Source: Muribaculaceae bacterium
GTDB taxonomy: Bacteria > Bacteroidota > Bacteroidia > Bacteroidales > Muribaculaceae
Reading direction: 5' to 3'
Length of the DNA stretch: 64,000 bases
Assembly: GCA_017443765.1 (NCBI GenBank)
Contig: JAFSYB010000025.1
Location: forward strand, 1-64,000
The translations under genes and the position numbers were made by a program. The notes below the pieces were generated by a model. It did no database searches. It saw only the letters and a list, made by a program, of their open reading frames with translations, and was not told the origin of the DNA. Shown in pieces: positions 1,085 to 56,260 of this stretch (positions are counted from its first letter, which is position 1; every line of letters starts with the position of its first letter).

Positions 1085-1099
1085 GTGGGGGGCGCGAGT

Positions 1100-1151
1100 A
1101 TTCGGGCATTCGAGCATTCGAACATTCGAGCATTCGAGCAATCGAGCAATC
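1100..1151 (+). repeat. Degenerate octamer array NNTCGARY (about 6.5 units)
   Basis: Consecutive 8-bp units ATTCGGGC, ATTCGAGC, ATTCGAAC, ATTCGAGC, ATTCGAGC, AATCGAGC and a partial unit. The TCGA core is nearly constant while the other positions vary. Two further arrays of the same family lie at 9574-9653 and 17747-17834. Confidence 0.9.
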
Positions 1152-1196
1152 AATGGCTGGGATTATTCGGCTGCTTGACGCGCAATAGCCACAGCA

Positions 1197-1271: not shown

Positions 1272-4200
1272 TTACTGCTGCTCGAGCACGAGGTTAATGA
1301 GCATGTTGACGTCGGTGATGTCAACCTCGGTGTCGCCGTTCAGGTCGGCATTTCCCGTCAGGGCGTCGGGCGAGATTTGGTTCAGCACCAGGTTGATAAT
1401 CAGGTTCACATCGGTCACATCGACGGTGCCATCGCCGTTCAGGTCGCCGGGCACTTGCTGGGTGGGGAGCGTGGTGAACTTCACCCATTCGGTCCAGTCG
1501 GTGGTGGTGTTGTCGTCCATGATGCCCTGCACCTGCACCTGATAACCGGTGTCGGGAGCCAGTCCGGTGAGTGTGCGTGGAGCGGTGATGCCCTCGAGGG
1601 TCACCCACTCGCCCGGCATTGACTCGGCGTACTGGATAAAGAAATTGTCGACATTCAGGCGGAACATATCCGTCACATCAAAGTGTCGGATGGCAATGTA
1701 ACCCATTTGTCCGTTGCAGGCGCTCAGGTCGAAGACATACTCGGTGTAAACGTTCTGTGCCTCGGTGGTGTCGGCAAGGACGATGGTGAAGTCCTCAATG
1801 GAGTTGCCCGTGGTGGAGGCATAGATGGCAAAATGCTCGGCGGCCCATTCGGGATCTTGGCTGCGGAGCCACACGCGCAGCTTGCCCTTGAGCTCCACCT
1901 GCGGTGTGATGAGCCAGTTGTCGGGCGTGAGGGCAGAGCCGCTGAAGCTGGCCGAGGTGGCGCAGCGTGCGTCGAACACGGTGGGATTGCCATATTTGTC
2001 CTCTTTTGTACGTCCTTGGACATCGGTGTCCCAGACATACCCGTTGTTGCCATCGCCATCGGCATCGATGGTCGTCCAGTTGTCGGGGATGCCGTTCTCG
2101 AAGTCCTCGAAGAAGCCAATGCGCTCGGCAGCCATTTGGTATCGCAGGTTGTAGCGCTCTTGTGCGCCGGTCCAGGTCACCGTGGCGGTATGGTCGGTGA
2201 TGTCGGTCACGGCCAGCTCGGTGGGCAAGGCATCGGCAGCAGGCGAAGTGAACGTGGCACTGGTCCACAACGAGGTTTCTCCCCCGTCATAGGTACCCTG
2301 CACGTCAACCTCGTATTTTGCCCCGGGCGACAGATTTTCGAGGCGGCAGGAGTTGCCGGTGATGCCGTTGATGGCAACATACTCGCCAAGCTCATGGAAG
2401 TCGCCATAGACGCAAATGTCATCGAAGAGCAAGTAGTCACATTCGTTGCAGTTGTAGTGTCGGAAGGCGATGTACCCCTGCTTGTCGGCATAGGCACTCA
2501 GGTCGGCATAGAGCTCGGTCCATTCCGTGGAGCCCGGCGAGGTGAGGTCGTCGGTGAGCGGCGTGAACGAGTTGATGTCGGTGTCGGTGGTTGACACATA
2601 GATGCGGTAGGTTCCGGTGTATTGGCCATCGTCGCGGATTGCGTACTTGAGCAAACCGCCCAGCGCCACCCTCGGGGTGATGATCCAGTTGTCGGGCGTA
2701 ATAAAGCCACTGACGTAGCCAAGCGATATGAGGGCGTTGTTGCCGTCGTAGGCCGGCATATCCCACTGCGATGCCATATTGATTATAGTCCAGTTATTGC
2801 CGTCGGCGTTGCTGTCGATGACCGTCCAGTCGTCGGGGATTCCTTTCTCGAAGCTCTCTGTCATGTGCACATCGTAGTATGCGGCCTGGCGGTAGCGCAG
2901 GTTATATCCCTTGGCGTTGCCGTTCCAGGAGGCCAAGGCGTTGTGCGCTGTCACATTGGTGACGGCCAGGTCGGCAGGTGCGGGGAATTGGAAAGGCGTG
3001 GTGAAAGTGCAGGCCTCGCTCCACTTGCTCACACCCGCCACGGTTTCGGCGCGCACATAGGCGGTGTAGGTGACGTTTTCGGCCAGATTCGCAATCGTCA
3101 GCGTGGGGTTGCCGGTAACCACCGTTATTGGCAGCGATGGTAGCTCATTGGGTTTGAAAAAGCCCTGACTGTAGGTCACCTGCCAGCGGTTTTGGTTGGT
3201 GTCGCCGGGTGTCCAGGCGAGCGTGGCGCTGTTGTAGGTCAGCTGCGTGGCGGCGAGGCCAGTGGGTTTGGGTGTTACCGAGCGCATCAAGAAGTAGGTG
3301 GTGAGTACGCCATCCGTTGGAGCTGCGCTGTGGTCAGACGTGCTGCCCTGGTGGCTCAAAATCACATCTCCTTCTGGGTCGGTGAGGGTAAAGGTGCACT
3401 CGTAGCCGTAATCGCCGCTCACCCACACAAAGCTGTAGGTTTCGCCGTAGCACAGGCGCAGGGTGCCGGTAGTGGAGGAGCCTGTGAGCAGGGTGAGCGT
3501 GGCCTCCACCTTGCCGTCGCTGTTCACCACCTGAATGGCGTTACCGCTCCAACCGTCGCCGTACTCGTCGATAAGCTCGTAGGTGATTTCGCCCATATCC
3601 TCCTCGTCGCAGTAGAGGGTGGTGAAGCTGGTGGTTGCCCATCCGCTGAGGTTTCCGTCGCCGTAGTCACCTTGCACGCGCACAATGTAGGAGTGTCCGT
3701 TGGTCAAGTCCTCGAGCGTGCACGACGGGGTGTTGACGGTGAGCGTTGTCCACTGATTGTTTTCGGCCGAGGCGTATTCCACGTTCCAGGCGGTTTCGCT
3801 GCCGCCGGGTGTCCAGGTGAGGGTGTCCGCGTTGGGCGTAATGTTGCTCACCGCCAGGTCCGTGGGTTTGCGGTACACCGGCCCGCTGCTGGGCGTGTAG
3901 GTGAACGTGGTCTTGGGAATGAAGTTGCGCTGGTTGACGGACACATCATCTAACGAGGAGCTGTCGTGGCCCTGCACCGAGGCACCCTCCACGGATTCGC
4001 CATAGAAATAGGCACCCTTATAGGAACCTTTCGTGGTGTTATAGATGCCAATGAGCAGGTTTCCCCCCTGGTAGGTGTAGGGCGTGTTGAAATCGACGGT
4101 AATCGTTTCGCCAGTGCCGTCGAGTGCCCCTTCATAGACGATGGTGGCCCCGGTGGTGCCGCTATAAGCGCTCAACGTGGTTGTATAAACCTCCTTGACG

Positions 4201-4476
4201 AACACCTGGAAATTGGCCGTGCCCCCAGCTGCCCGTGGCGGGTGTCTGGAGATACCAGGTCAGGCTGCTGATGGTGCCGCCCTCCATCTGGCTCAGCTCG
4301 GTAGCCGGAACCACATACTCGCACTTCAGGTAATTATCGCAGTTAAACCCATAGATGGGCACTTAACTGCTTTTCCCCTGACCATCGTGCACGGTAAGCG
4401 TGTCCGCGCTGGCCCACAGCGGCAATCCCGCCGTCAAGGCAAGCAGCGCAGTGAGGAATAGTAACTTGTGTTTCAT
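1272..4476 (-). pseudogene. Secreted fibronectin-III/cleaved-adhesin protein with C-terminal dockerin-like pair, N-terminus disrupted
   Basis: A signal peptide begins at the ATG at 4476 (MKHKLLFLTALLALTAG). After 37 codons a TAA (4363-4365) interrupts the frame, and the homologous sequence carries straight on (VPIYGFNCDNYLKC). A +1 shift follows at a five-G tract (plus-strand C run 4222-4226): removing one G joins ...TGSWG to NFQVFVKEVYTTTL. From about 4205 the frame is open for 977 residues, with several FN3 repeats and two cleaved-adhesin/MAM-like domains (ENGIPDNWTTID and NWLITPQVELKG). The C-terminus holds two dockerin-like loops (GDLNGDGTVDVTDVN, ADLNGDTEVDITDVN). As written, the product would be a 37-residue peptide, or a protein without a signal. 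Decay, phase variation and sequence error are all possible. Confidence 0.8.
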
Positions 4477-9573: not shown

Positions 9574-9653
9574 ATTCGAGCAATCGAGTGCTCGAGTTTT
9601 CGAGTGCTCGAACATTCGAACATTCGAGTTTTCGAGCAATCGAGTGTTCGAGC
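9574..9653 (+). repeat. Degenerate octamer array NNTCGARY (10 units)
   Basis: Exactly ten contiguous 8-bp units with TCGA at positions 3-6 of each and variable flanking dinucleotides. The array starts 34 bp past the stop of the lipid kinase gene and lies upstream of the GH133 promoter. Together with that promoter it accounts for most of the gene-free stretch 9330-9686. Confidence 0.9.
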
Positions 9654-9686: not shown

Positions 9687-10586
9687 TCAGATACTCTTCC
9701 CCCCCTTGGGGACGAAGACGCGCAGGGCTGCGGGCTGGCACTCGATGTGCAGCAGGCGGGGCATCATCATCGGCTCGCCGTCGAGGTGCATCACATCGTC
9801 CTTTTCGCGCTCGATGTAGATGTCGCGGCCTCGGTAGATGGTCACGTGGCGGTCGTGGTCGATGCTGCTCGTGAAGAGGCGCGCACTCAGCAGCGCGGCC
9901 TCGCCCAGGTTGAAGCTGTGAATCACGGTCATATCGATCATGCCGTCCTTCATCGACGCGCGCGGGGCCATAAAAGCGTTGTTGCCATACTGCGCCGCAT
10001 TGCAAAAGGCGATGACGAAAGCGCGCTCACGGAGCTGCTGGTTGTCGATGCTGATGGCGTAGTCCTGCGCCTTGTAGCGGAAATACTCGCCCAGAGTGGC
10101 GCGTATGTAGGTGACCAGGCCGCGCGTGTCCTCGTTGGCAAACTTGTAGCTCACCTGTGCGTCGAAGCCCACGCCGCAGGTGCAGAAGAACGGCAGCCCG
10201 TTCACAGTGCCGCAGTCCACGGTTTCGATGTTGCCGTCGTTAATCACCGCGAGGGCCTTTTCCACATTGATGGGGATGTGCAGGTGCCGCGCCAGTCCGT
10301 TTCCCGAGCCGCAGGGAACCACGGCCAGCGGCACCCCCGTGCCGCGCAGCACGCGGGCCACCTCGTTCACCGTGCCGTCGCCGCCCACGGCCACCACGCC
10401 GTCGTCGCCGCGCGACAAGGCTTCGCGCGCCAACTCGGTGGCATGGCCGGGCGACTGCGTGAACACCACCGTGGTGGCGTTATGGCCGGGGTCGATACAT
10501 TTCTCCACCAGCGCCGGAATGCGCTCCTTGCTGCCAGTGCCCGAAATCGGGTTTATTATCACCGTGATATGTTGTGCTGTTGACAT
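9687..10586 (-). CDS. YegS/DagK-family lipid kinase
   Basis: 299 residues from the ATG at 10586 (MSTAQHITVIINPISG). The DAGK catalytic fold is shown by NPISGTGSKERIPALV near the start, VAVGGDGTVNEVARVLRG around residue 65 (GGDGT nucleotide loop) and VPCGSGNGLARHLHIP. It probably phosphorylates diacylglycerol or a sphingoid or other lipid at the membrane; Bacteroidales make sphingolipids, but the substrate is not readable. A -7-like TATTTTTG lies at 10615-10608. The gene is divergent from the DUF308 gene across an 11-bp inverted repeat. Confidence 0.9.
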   Translation of the reverse strand: MSTAQHITVIINPISGTGSKERIPALVEKCIDPGHNATTVVFTQSPGHATELAREALSRGDDGVVAVGGDGTVNEVARVLRGTGVPLAVVPCGSGNGLARHLHIPINVEKALAVINDGNIETVDCGTVNGLPFFCTCGVGFDAQVSYKFANEDTRGLVTYIRATLGEYFRYKAQDYAISIDNQQLRERAFVIAFCNAAQYGNNAFMAPRASMKDGMIDMTVIHSFNLGEAALLSARLFTSSIDHDRHVTIYRGRDIYIEREKDDVMHLDGEPMMMPRLLHIECQPAALRVFVPKGGKSI

Positions 10587-16807: not shown

Positions 16808-17725
16808 ATGGAAAAATTTGAAGTGACGATTCTTGGCTGTGGTTCGGCGGTGCCGAATGCTCGCCACATGACCACCTCCCAACTGGTAAACGTGCACGAC
16901 AAGATTTTCATGGTTGACTGCGGCGAGGGCACGCAGACGCAGATATGGCGCATGGGGGCGAGGGTGAGCGCACTGAAGCACATCTTCATCAGCCACGCGC
17001 ATGGCGACCACTTCTTCGGTCTGCTACCGCTTGTGTCGAGCCTGAGCCTGATGCTTTGCCGCACCGACGACTTGCACATCTGGATTCCCGCCGAGATGCA
17101 GGAGCTGCTCGAGCGGTGCTTTTCCCGCTGGTGCTACCTGCCGTTCACGGTGGTGTTCCACGGCATAGACCCCACCCGCCGTGCCGTGCTTGTCGACGAG
17201 AAAGAGTTCACCGTGGAAACCGTCCCGCTCAACCACTGCGTGCCTTGCTGCGGCTTCCTGTTCAGCGAGAAACCCAAGCCTCCGGTGCTGCTTCCCGAGC
17301 GGTGCAAGGCCGCGGGCATCCCGCCGCGGCAATTCGGCAAAATCAAGGCTGGAGCCGACTGGACGCTGGCCGACGGCAGCGTGGTGCCCAACAGCGCACT
17401 CACCACGCCCAGCGATTTCGTGCCACGCCGGTATGCCTACTGCAGCGACACGGCGTACTATCCGGCGGTGATTCCGCAAATCGAGGGTGTGGACCTGCTC
17501 TATCACGAGGCCACGTTTGTGACGGCCGACGAGCAGAAGGCGACATTCGCCTTCCACTCCACGGCAGCCCAGGCGGCCGCCATTGCCCGCGATGCACACG
17601 TGGGCCGGCTCGCCATTGGCCACTACTCCATCCGCTACACCGGCGAGGACGAGCTCCTTGCCGAGGCCCGGCAGGTGTTCGCCAACACAGTGGCCGCCCA
17701 AGAGGGCATGGTGCTCGAGGTGTGA
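16808..17725 (+). CDS. rnz: Ribonuclease Z
   Basis: 305 residues from the ATG at 16808 (MEKFEVTILGCGSAVPN), the normal length for short-form RNase Z. The metallo-beta-lactamase metal site is FISHAHGDHFFGL near residue 65. Later ligands are in AYCSDTAYY, LYHEATF and AIGHYSIRYT. It trims tRNA 3' trailers in the cytoplasm. The stop is followed 21 bp later by an octamer repeat array. Confidence 0.95.
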   Translation: MEKFEVTILGCGSAVPNARHMTTSQLVNVHDKIFMVDCGEGTQTQIWRMGARVSALKHIFISHAHGDHFFGLLPLVSSLSLMLCRTDDLHIWIPAEMQELLERCFSRWCYLPFTVVFHGIDPTRRAVLVDEKEFTVETVPLNHCVPCCGFLFSEKPKPPVLLPERCKAAGIPPRQFGKIKAGADWTLADGSVVPNSALTTPSDFVPRRYAYCSDTAYYPAVIPQIEGVDLLYHEATFVTADEQKATFAFHSTAAQAAAIARDAHVGRLAIGHYSIRYTGEDELLAEARQVFANTVAAQEGMVLEV

Positions 17726-17746: not shown

Positions 17747-17834
17747 CGATTACTCGATTGTTCGATTATTCGAATGTTCGATTGTTCGATTATTCGTTTA
17801 CTCGATTACTCGATTCTTCTATTACTCGATTCTT
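17747..17834 (-). repeat. Degenerate octamer array NNTCGARY (11 units, inverted)
   Basis: Eleven contiguous 8-bp units reading CGATTACT, CGATTGTT, CGATTATT, CGAATGTT and so on on the plus strand, which is the reverse complement of the 1100 and 9574 arrays. One unit (CTATTACT) has lost the core. Confidence 0.9.
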
Positions 17835-17978
17835 CGGCCTCGTCAAGAGCCATTGCCCGGCCTTGTCGCACAACCAGCCCACACACCGCCACCTGGCAAT
17901 TCCCGGCATTACAGGCACAAAGCGTTAAATATCTTTAAAACCCTCAAACCAAATGGCCATTCTTTGGTCTAAAGAATG

Positions 17979-21860: not shown

Positions 21861-22015
21861 TCCAGTCACGGCAATTGCAGTTATTGGCGGTTCAACATTC
21901 CATTTCGGTTTGCAAAATTACTGCTTTTTTTAATATAGTCAGCGATATGGCCGCTTTTTTTGCGTGAGCCAATTCATGGATCAGCTTCGGCAAGGCTGGA
22001 AGAGCTATAAAAGAC

Positions 22016-22265
22016 AGAAGAACAAAAGCCTTTGACTGCGGTTGGCAGAAGAACAAAAGCCTTTGATTGCGGTTGACAGAAGAACAAAAGCCTTTGACTG
22101 CGGTTGGCAGAAAAACAAAAGCCTTTGATTGTGGTTGGCAGAAAAAGAAAAGCCCTTGACTGCGGTTGGCAGAAGAACAAAAGCCCTTGACTGCGGTTGG
22201 CAGAAGAATATATGGTGGTTTGATTCGGTTTCTGTTATCCGCATTTTGTTGCGCTGCGATTTGGG
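22016..22265 (+). repeat. 31-bp tandem repeat array (6 units) with conserved tail
   Basis: Six consecutive 31-bp units begin at 22016, 22047, 22078, 22109, 22140 and 22171, each with AGCCYTTGAYTGYGGTTGRC. A tail at 22202-22265 (AGAATATATGG, then TTGATTCGGTTTCTGTTATCC) also follows the copy at 30479. There are no spacers, so it is not CRISPR. With a hairpin at 22337-22371 it accounts for most of the gene-free stretch 21861-22401. Confidence 0.92.
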
Positions 22266-30416: not shown

Positions 30417-30540
30417 ATAAGAACATAAGCCCTTGATTGCGGTTGGCTGAAGAACACAAGCCTTTGACTGCGGTTGGCTGAAGAATATATGGAGGCTTGA
30501 TTGGCTTTCTGTTATCCATTTTTGCGCTGTGGCATTTGGG
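30417..30540 (+). repeat. 31-bp repeat array (2 units) with conserved tail
   Basis: Units 30417-30447 and 30448-30478 match the 22016 family. The tail from 30479 (TGAAGAATATATGG, then TTGATTGGCTTTCTGTTATCC) matches the tail at 22202. It lies between convergent genes in the gene-free stretch 30381-30774; in the rest of that stretch I see no gene, only short AATTCG-type direct repeats near 30695-30720. Confidence 0.88.
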
Positions 30541-55844: not shown

Positions 55845-55882
55845 ACTTTGCATAAAGCATAATTCACAAAGCATAGTTCACA

Positions 55883-56260
55883 ATGGACAATTTCGCAAAT
55901 TGCAAGGAGGCCACCAGCGTTTTCACCGCATTGCTGCATTGTGAATTGTGGATTGTGCTTTGTGCTTTACTATTAAGTTGCAGCGGTGGGCACGAGGAAT
56001 CGGAACAAGCCGATGCCTCGGCTGCGCGCACGTTCACGGTGGAGCAGGCGCAACAGCTGGGCCTTGAGGCCGCCCGTGCCATCGCCGCCAGCGACCACGC
56101 CGACACGCTCGCCTTGCAAGGAAGCATCATCGATGCCCACGCAACACGCAGCGAGATGAGGCTGGCCGGCAACGACGCGGCTGCCGAAGCCTTCGACGAG
56201 ACGCTGCGCGACGAACTGCGCCGCACCGACCCGCCAGTGGCCGCCGAGCTGTTCCCTTAG
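55883..56260 (+). CDS. Small lipoprotein, unknown
   Basis: 125 residues. After an N-terminal stretch the hydrophobic segment LWIVLCALLLSCSGGHEES ends in a lipobox-like LSCS. The mature part is helical, acidic and alanine-rich. The real start may be a later non-ATG codon, because the first 20 residues are not signal-like. It is 19 bp before the next lipoprotein gene, with which it seems to form an operon ending in the prenyl synthase. Confidence 0.55.
   Translation: MDNFANCKEATSVFTALLHCELWIVLCALLLSCSGGHEESEQADASAARTFTVEQAQQLGLEAARAIAASDHADTLALQGSIIDAHATRSEMRLAGNDAAAEAFDETLRDELRRTDPPVAAELFP

Follow-up and report, generated by a model that had tools for sequence, protein, structure and literature searches.

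Short degenerate repeats arranged in tandem between genes are known from Calothrix, Nostoc, Xanthomonas and Beggiatoaceae, in all cases without a known origin or partner. They include the intergenic heptamers GGGAATC/(GGGANTN)n of Xanthomonas and GGGGA(C/T)T of Nostoc (PMC4692102) and the TAACTGA repeats, for which a binding protein has been suspected that is possibly itself the mobile element (PMC4679880); the author of the Beggiatoa work called for the identification of that repeat-binding protein. Proteins of the S23/PF05635 family have had solved structures since 2006, and their function is not known. In this work we analyzed a stretch of 64,000 nucleotides (hereafter, the window) from a metagenome-assembled genome (MAG) of the Muribaculaceae genus Sodaliphilus (gut/rumen Bacteroidales; 3.07 Mb in 140 contigs), which carries three intergenic arrays of degenerate octamers with a TCGA core. 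We consider it probable that these TCGA arrays are cis-elements, dispersed in the genome, that belong to a gene cassette of mobile or selfish character encoding an S23-family protein, which most likely binds the array, and that arrays standing alone derive from that cassette as non-autonomous copies or leftovers.

The first array (1095..1153, plus strand) consists of degenerate octamers NNTCGARY, with 5 perfect TCGA cores and 2-3 mutated units, and lies between the minus-strand genes 2-991 and 1272-4205. The second (9574..9653, plus strand) is the most regular, with 10 successive TCGA cores in phase 8 separated by 9 variable spacers (GCAA, GTGC, GTTT, GTGC, ACAT, ACAT, GTTT, GCAA and GTGT), and lies 34 bp downstream of a minus-strand gene whose stop is at 9687. 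The third (17747..17836, minus strand) holds about 11 octamers with the sense unit TCGATTRY and 8 perfect TCGA cores, and starts 21 bp past the stop of a plus-strand gene ending at 17725. The corresponding phase-8 runs extend over 1110-1145 (5 units), 9576-9651 (10 of 10) and 17754-17829 (8 TCGA, two mutated units), and no further phase-8 TCGA run of at least 3 units was found elsewhere in the 64 kb. The pattern TCGAN4TCGAN4TCGAN4TCGA matched the window 11 times and none of 100 dinucleotide shuffles; its reversed control, AGCT, gave no match in the genome of the window, in all 60 relatives and in 99 of the 101 genomes of the genus. These results confirm the arrays reported in a preliminary description of this DNA, which had also placed each of them between two co-directional genes, as holds for all three, and two of them 21-34 bp past a stop codon. 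Its statement that the NNTCGARY strand is antisense to the neighboring genes is likewise true of the window, where all 18 sense-strand spacers end in a pyrimidine and are mostly NNRY, and of a fourth co-directional array on another contig (C124:69753). The first array is also bracketed by two long, near-perfect inverted repeats (1040-1085 and 1197-1248), which are terminator- or REP-like.

Besides the window arrays, the genome contains three TCGA array loci of period 8, at C1:21080-21155, C124:69745-69804 and, weakly, C33:22985-23036, making six; up to 150 pattern matches were counted in one congener. These arrays belong with intergenic short tandem repeats, as units of about 6-9 bp recur at many intergenic loci with conserved and variable positions. 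Across 73 Bacteroidales arrays, 2.0% of core bases deviated from TCGA, versus 28% of the bases of the 4-bp spacers from the majority of their array, the core value being somewhat flattered by the fact that the arrays were located by TCGA itself. At locus L148 (4429-4480 and 6016-6083), duplicated flanks carry duplicated TCGA arrays, with all cores intact and the spacers diverged. The spacers fall into two dialects, NYRN (ATGC, ACAT, TTGT, GTAA) in most Muribaculaceae and NRYN (AACA, AATA, AGCA) in Prevotella-type genomes.

Placement was scored with a simple gene caller for 83 arrays having both neighbors: 69 were co-directional, 9 convergent and 5 divergent, and none lay within a gene. The arrays prefer the 3' side of genes, at a median of 37 bp from the stop. 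In 1.18 Mb of one genome (G014), nine arrays occupied 5 convergent, 4 co-directional and 0 divergent gaps, against 95, 368 and 111, respectively, when every gap between genes measuring 40 bp or more was counted. The fixed orientation to flanking genes was dropped as a general rule: it is the same in all four co-directional arrays of the genome studied and nearly constant in the Prevotella-type dialect (23 versus 1), but in the Muribaculaceae dialect it is 15 versus 14. The related proposal of selection on a protein-binding or RNA-level pattern rather than slippage keeps its support from the conserved core and variable spacers and from the placement outside genes, mostly on their 3' side, and a specific trans-acting protein is now implicated. 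At the orthologous intergenic site, the second array is missing both in G303, which at 85-90% identity was the closest relative found, and in about 22 further Sodaliphilus genomes, which indicates that arrays come and go.

Comparison of the flanks of array loci across species revealed one common neighbor gene, of about 245 codons, whose product matches TIGR02436/PF05635 (S23/four-helix bundle), TIGR04258 ("four helix bundle suffix") and, at the C-terminus, PF01396 (a topoisomerase-type zinc ribbon). The TIGR02436 match is above the cut-off; that to PF05635 is above it for the Prevotella homologue and below it for the Sodaliphilus zinc-ribbon members. In the genome of the window this gene lies outside the window, at C1:21164-21910, and encodes 248 amino acids comprising S23, suffix and zinc ribbon; the last perfect core of the C1 array lies 17 bp before its start. 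In most genomes carrying the gene, TCGA arrays stand directly before its start codon, directly after its stop codon, or both. Among 101 Sodaliphilus genomes, with gene presence defined by E<1e-35, arrays were found in 21 of the 24 with the gene and in 18 of the 77 without it (Fisher p=2e-8). The three gene-only genomes are partly explained by their own features: a period-9 member in G279, a disrupted gene with imperfect arrays in G009, and a short three-core run in G291. The dialect follows the gene as well, since spacers centered on YR make up 116 of 132 (88%) beside genes of clade A and 3 of 91 (3%) beside those of clade B, one clade B locus being counted twice. Relatives of the gene occupy many different gene neighborhoods, and no S23 gene was present beside the orthologue of the C1 gene's neighbor in 10 relatives. 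A ribbon-helix-helix operator, on the model of the 8-bp met boxes of MetJ or the omega heptads, had also been considered and was rejected, the partner being an S23 bundle with a zinc ribbon.

The predicted structure of the partner agrees with the domain matches. An AlphaFold2 monomer model (pLDDT 84.6) displays a helical bundle, a helical suffix and a short beta zinc ribbon; in structural comparison 2GSC ranked first (Z 15.1, rmsd 2.0, 117 aligned residues), above unrelated helical bundles, and a second S23 structure, 2RLD, scored Z 13.1 (rmsd 2.0, 108 aligned). A profile search with the protein also retrieved 2GSC (E 5e-5). Foldseek gave no match at E<=0.001, with 2GSC at rank 1 and E=0.009, so that the fold assignment rests on the VIA-align Z scores, the domain models and the profile match. 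Together, these results place the modeled protein in the S23/23S_rRNA_IVP four-helix-bundle family, whose member XCC0516 (2GSC) is reported to form a homopentamer of four-helix bundles.

The TCGA arrays are one family among many, and an S23-family gene adjoins arrays elsewhere in the genome, two points beyond the reach of the preliminary description. An unbiased tandem-repeat survey of G014 returned many degenerate intergenic arrays of period 7-9, each with its own core (CAGTTNN, TAGCNNN, GTTTAGN, GTTGAGN, TCTAGANNN, CTCGGAGNN and GGGAANNNN), and more distant S23 paralogues were found to adjoin arrays of their own, with periods of 7-11 and many of them heptamers, built on units such as GTCCGAC (period 10), TAACG, TCTAGA and CTCCGAG (all three period 9), CTATAAGG and GCATTGT, among others. 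When the unit is not palindromic, the two flanking arrays are usually mutually inverted. Taking as positive at least 5 8-mers of the left flank that recur in the right flank after reverse complementation, inverted flanks were obtained for 19 of 26 Sodaliphilus S23 genes versus 13 of 793 background genes (p=1e-24). Eighteen plasmid S23 genes of cyanobacteria, Azospirillum and Riemerella, picked by protein similarity alone, included 15 with inverted and 2 with direct flanks (the cyanobacterial loci L370 and L384), against 1 of 36 shifted controls (p=1e-9); on a Nostoc plasmid stretch the S23 gene scored 32, the best among 61 other genes scoring 7. In a sample of Bacteroidota (best S23 matches, 118 genomes), 9 of 28 genes versus 1 of 56 controls were positive (p=1e-4). 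The association of gene and array is therefore general, and weaker in the Bacteroidota sample: arrays and S23 genes are matched in pairs, the brackets are inverted or have a palindromic core, and both come and go.

Further members of these families were observed. The genome studied has three more S23-family genes with their own arrays of heptamers or 9-mers, at C16:21703-22020, C16:74294-74518 and C34:7393-7703, the last of them split across two reading frames. Within the window, degenerate heptamer arrays of GCATAAA/GCATTGT type lie at 55850-55883 and 55928-55965, and in congeners this family flanks another S23 gene (L349, L366). The CAGTT/AACTGAY heptamer arrays of G014 (e.g. C7:149971-150066) closely resemble the Beggiatoa TAACTGA repeats, with no S23 partner found so far. 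Three cyanobacterial plasmid cassettes (L369, L370, L381) sit within CRISPR-Cas operons (cas6-cas4, cas10-cmr3). The 23S rRNA IVP domain has been statistically associated with CRISPR adaptation modules (PMC10910872), and such cassettes may account for that association.

From these associations we infer a simple scheme. The S23 zinc-ribbon protein would bind the TCGA array, as DNA or RNA, and because four-helix bundles assemble as a pentamer in one S23 relative of solved structure, a pentameric ring presenting several zinc ribbons may grip successive octamers, contacting them at the palindromic TCGA and reading the spacers with less stringency. The gene bracketed by arrays would behave as a small cassette, mobile or selfish, that takes up positions between genes, and the three arrays of the window would be its copied, non-autonomous derivatives or its leftovers. 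With about even chances, the scheme extends further: S23 genes bracketed by degenerate, usually inverted arrays of 7-11 bp units would form a widespread and so far undescribed class of minimal mobile elements, present in Bacteroidota, Cyanobacteria and Proteobacteria, every S23 paralogue would recognize its own array, the known heptamer repeats would be dispersed non-autonomous arrays, and the TCGA octamers of the window would be one family of this class.

Several observations weigh against the cassette. Only an upstream array was found next to the C1 gene, and 18 of the 39 array-carrying genomes had no detected close relative of the gene; many of these are incomplete MAGs, and gene loss or another partner may be involved. 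No target-site duplication was demonstrated, nor, for the C1 cassette, a clean empty site, its left and right neighbors being non-adjacent in relatives; no catalytic domain was recognized in the protein. Beyond Sodaliphilus and the plasmid set, S23 genes have shorter arrays at their flanks, often visible on one side, and no S23 gene was seen for the abundant CAGTT, TAGC and GTTTAG families of G014.

Among the alternatives, a regulon has the best standing, though we regard it as rather unlikely. The S23 zinc-ribbon protein would be a resident regulator and the arrays its binding sites, acting in autoregulation at its own gene and elsewhere on where transcripts end, how stable they are or how the next gene is translated. 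The position of arrays soon after stops is consistent with this, as is the fixed sense orientation of Prevotella-type arrays shortly upstream of starts, and a model of a binding protein acting on translation was proposed for the TAACTGA heptamers (PMC4679880). However, orthologous sites lack the second array even where identity is 85-90%, orientation is unfixed in Muribaculaceae, divergent promoter regions are the rarest location, and arrays on both sides of a gene, inverted in the non-palindromic families, resemble the ends of an element more than operators.

It is less likely still that the arrays serve RNA excision. By analogy with 23S rRNA intervening sequences (IVS), pairing between inverted arrays would give the transcript of the cassette a long stem for RNase III to cut, which would make the cassette harmless inside operons; solitary arrays would be relics. 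The Coxiella IVS offers a precedent, with an S23 open reading frame (ORF), upstream tandem heptamers, a 28-bp terminal stem and excision by RNase III (PMC4990558), and S23 cassettes do occur between nrdB and nrdA, between cas6 and cas4, and between cas10 and a cmr3-family gene. Against this, TCGA arrays are complementary only in their 4-bp cores and mostly mismatched in the spacers, and would therefore be expected to make poor stems, and solitary arrays have no pairing partner. Both a regulatory role and RNA-level excision are compatible with the cassette and do not exclude it.

That S23 genes land in pre-existing arrays, which would be merely preferred insertion sites, appears very improbable. 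Gene and arrays do co-occur, with arrays more numerous than genes, but insertion should leave direct halves, and the overwhelmingly inverted brackets of the non-palindromic families speak against simple insertion into an existing array. Least probable of all are neutral microsatellites produced by polymerase slippage and tolerated between genes without a dedicated protein, because, although duplications of one or several units can be seen (16-bp periods) and period-8 TCGA matches outside Bacteroidales are mostly perfect microsatellites, the core deviates far less than the spacers, one core recurs at many loci and genera with the reversed control near-absent, and the arrays are associated with S23 genes in matched dialects.

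The window also contains a 31-bp unit (approximately AGAACAAAAGCCTTTGACTGCGGTTGGC) in tandem at two intergenic loci, 22015-22208 (about six copies) and 30419-30485 (about two copies).

Compared with the described systems, the TCGA arrays share with the Xanthomonas and Nostoc heptamers the tandem arrangement of short units in which some positions are conserved and others degenerate, the intergenic location, mostly co-directional neighbors and a close ORF (about 28 nt) (PMC4692102), and differ from them in their period of 8, palindromic core and 4-bp variable spacer, the heptamers having no known partner protein. With the TAACTGA repeats of Beggiatoaceae, cyanobacteria and some Bacteroidetes they have in common intergenic tandem arrays of patchy distribution, but those repeats are mostly immediately upstream of start codons and no partner protein was identified for them (PMC4679880). 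On the protein side, Avd of diversity-generating retroelements is a related four-helix bundle (PMC10053308), and some short S23 paralogues are weak matches to the Avd model; no reverse transcriptase or template/variable repeats were noticed at S23 loci, where no search aimed at them was made. The Coxiella IVS resembles the cassettes in its S23-family ORF, upstream tandem heptamers and terminal inverted repeats (PMC4990558), but it resides inside 23S rRNA genes, whereas the cassettes lie between protein genes and are accompanied by dispersed solitary arrays; neither the window nor six S23/array loci contained an Rfam family at its gathering score or above, so that a location in 23S rRNA genes is not indicated. 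Beyond this IVS, no report linking S23 genes with heptamer arrays in general was found in a search that left subscription journals mostly outside. The pairing of S23 genes and arrays suggests that a kind of mobile or selfish element has been overlooked and that heptamer repeats of unknown function have a partner, and it gives each side a testable hypothesis: one protein, its own array and a specificity code of a TCGA core with YR or RY spacers. If true, a new class of small selfish elements would exist in gut and environmental bacteria. A parallel in logic is that of REP/REPIN sequences and RAYT (PMC3116915), where a gene adjoins its own repeat, as here, and many more solitary copies lie between genes. 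RAYT is a Y1/HUH transposase acting with short palindromic REPs, whereas here an S23 four-helix-bundle protein is paired with tandem arrays, and Y1_Tnp was not among the Pfam/NCBIfam matches of the partner. The cassette is best read as similar to REP/RAYT in its logic and built on an unrelated protein.
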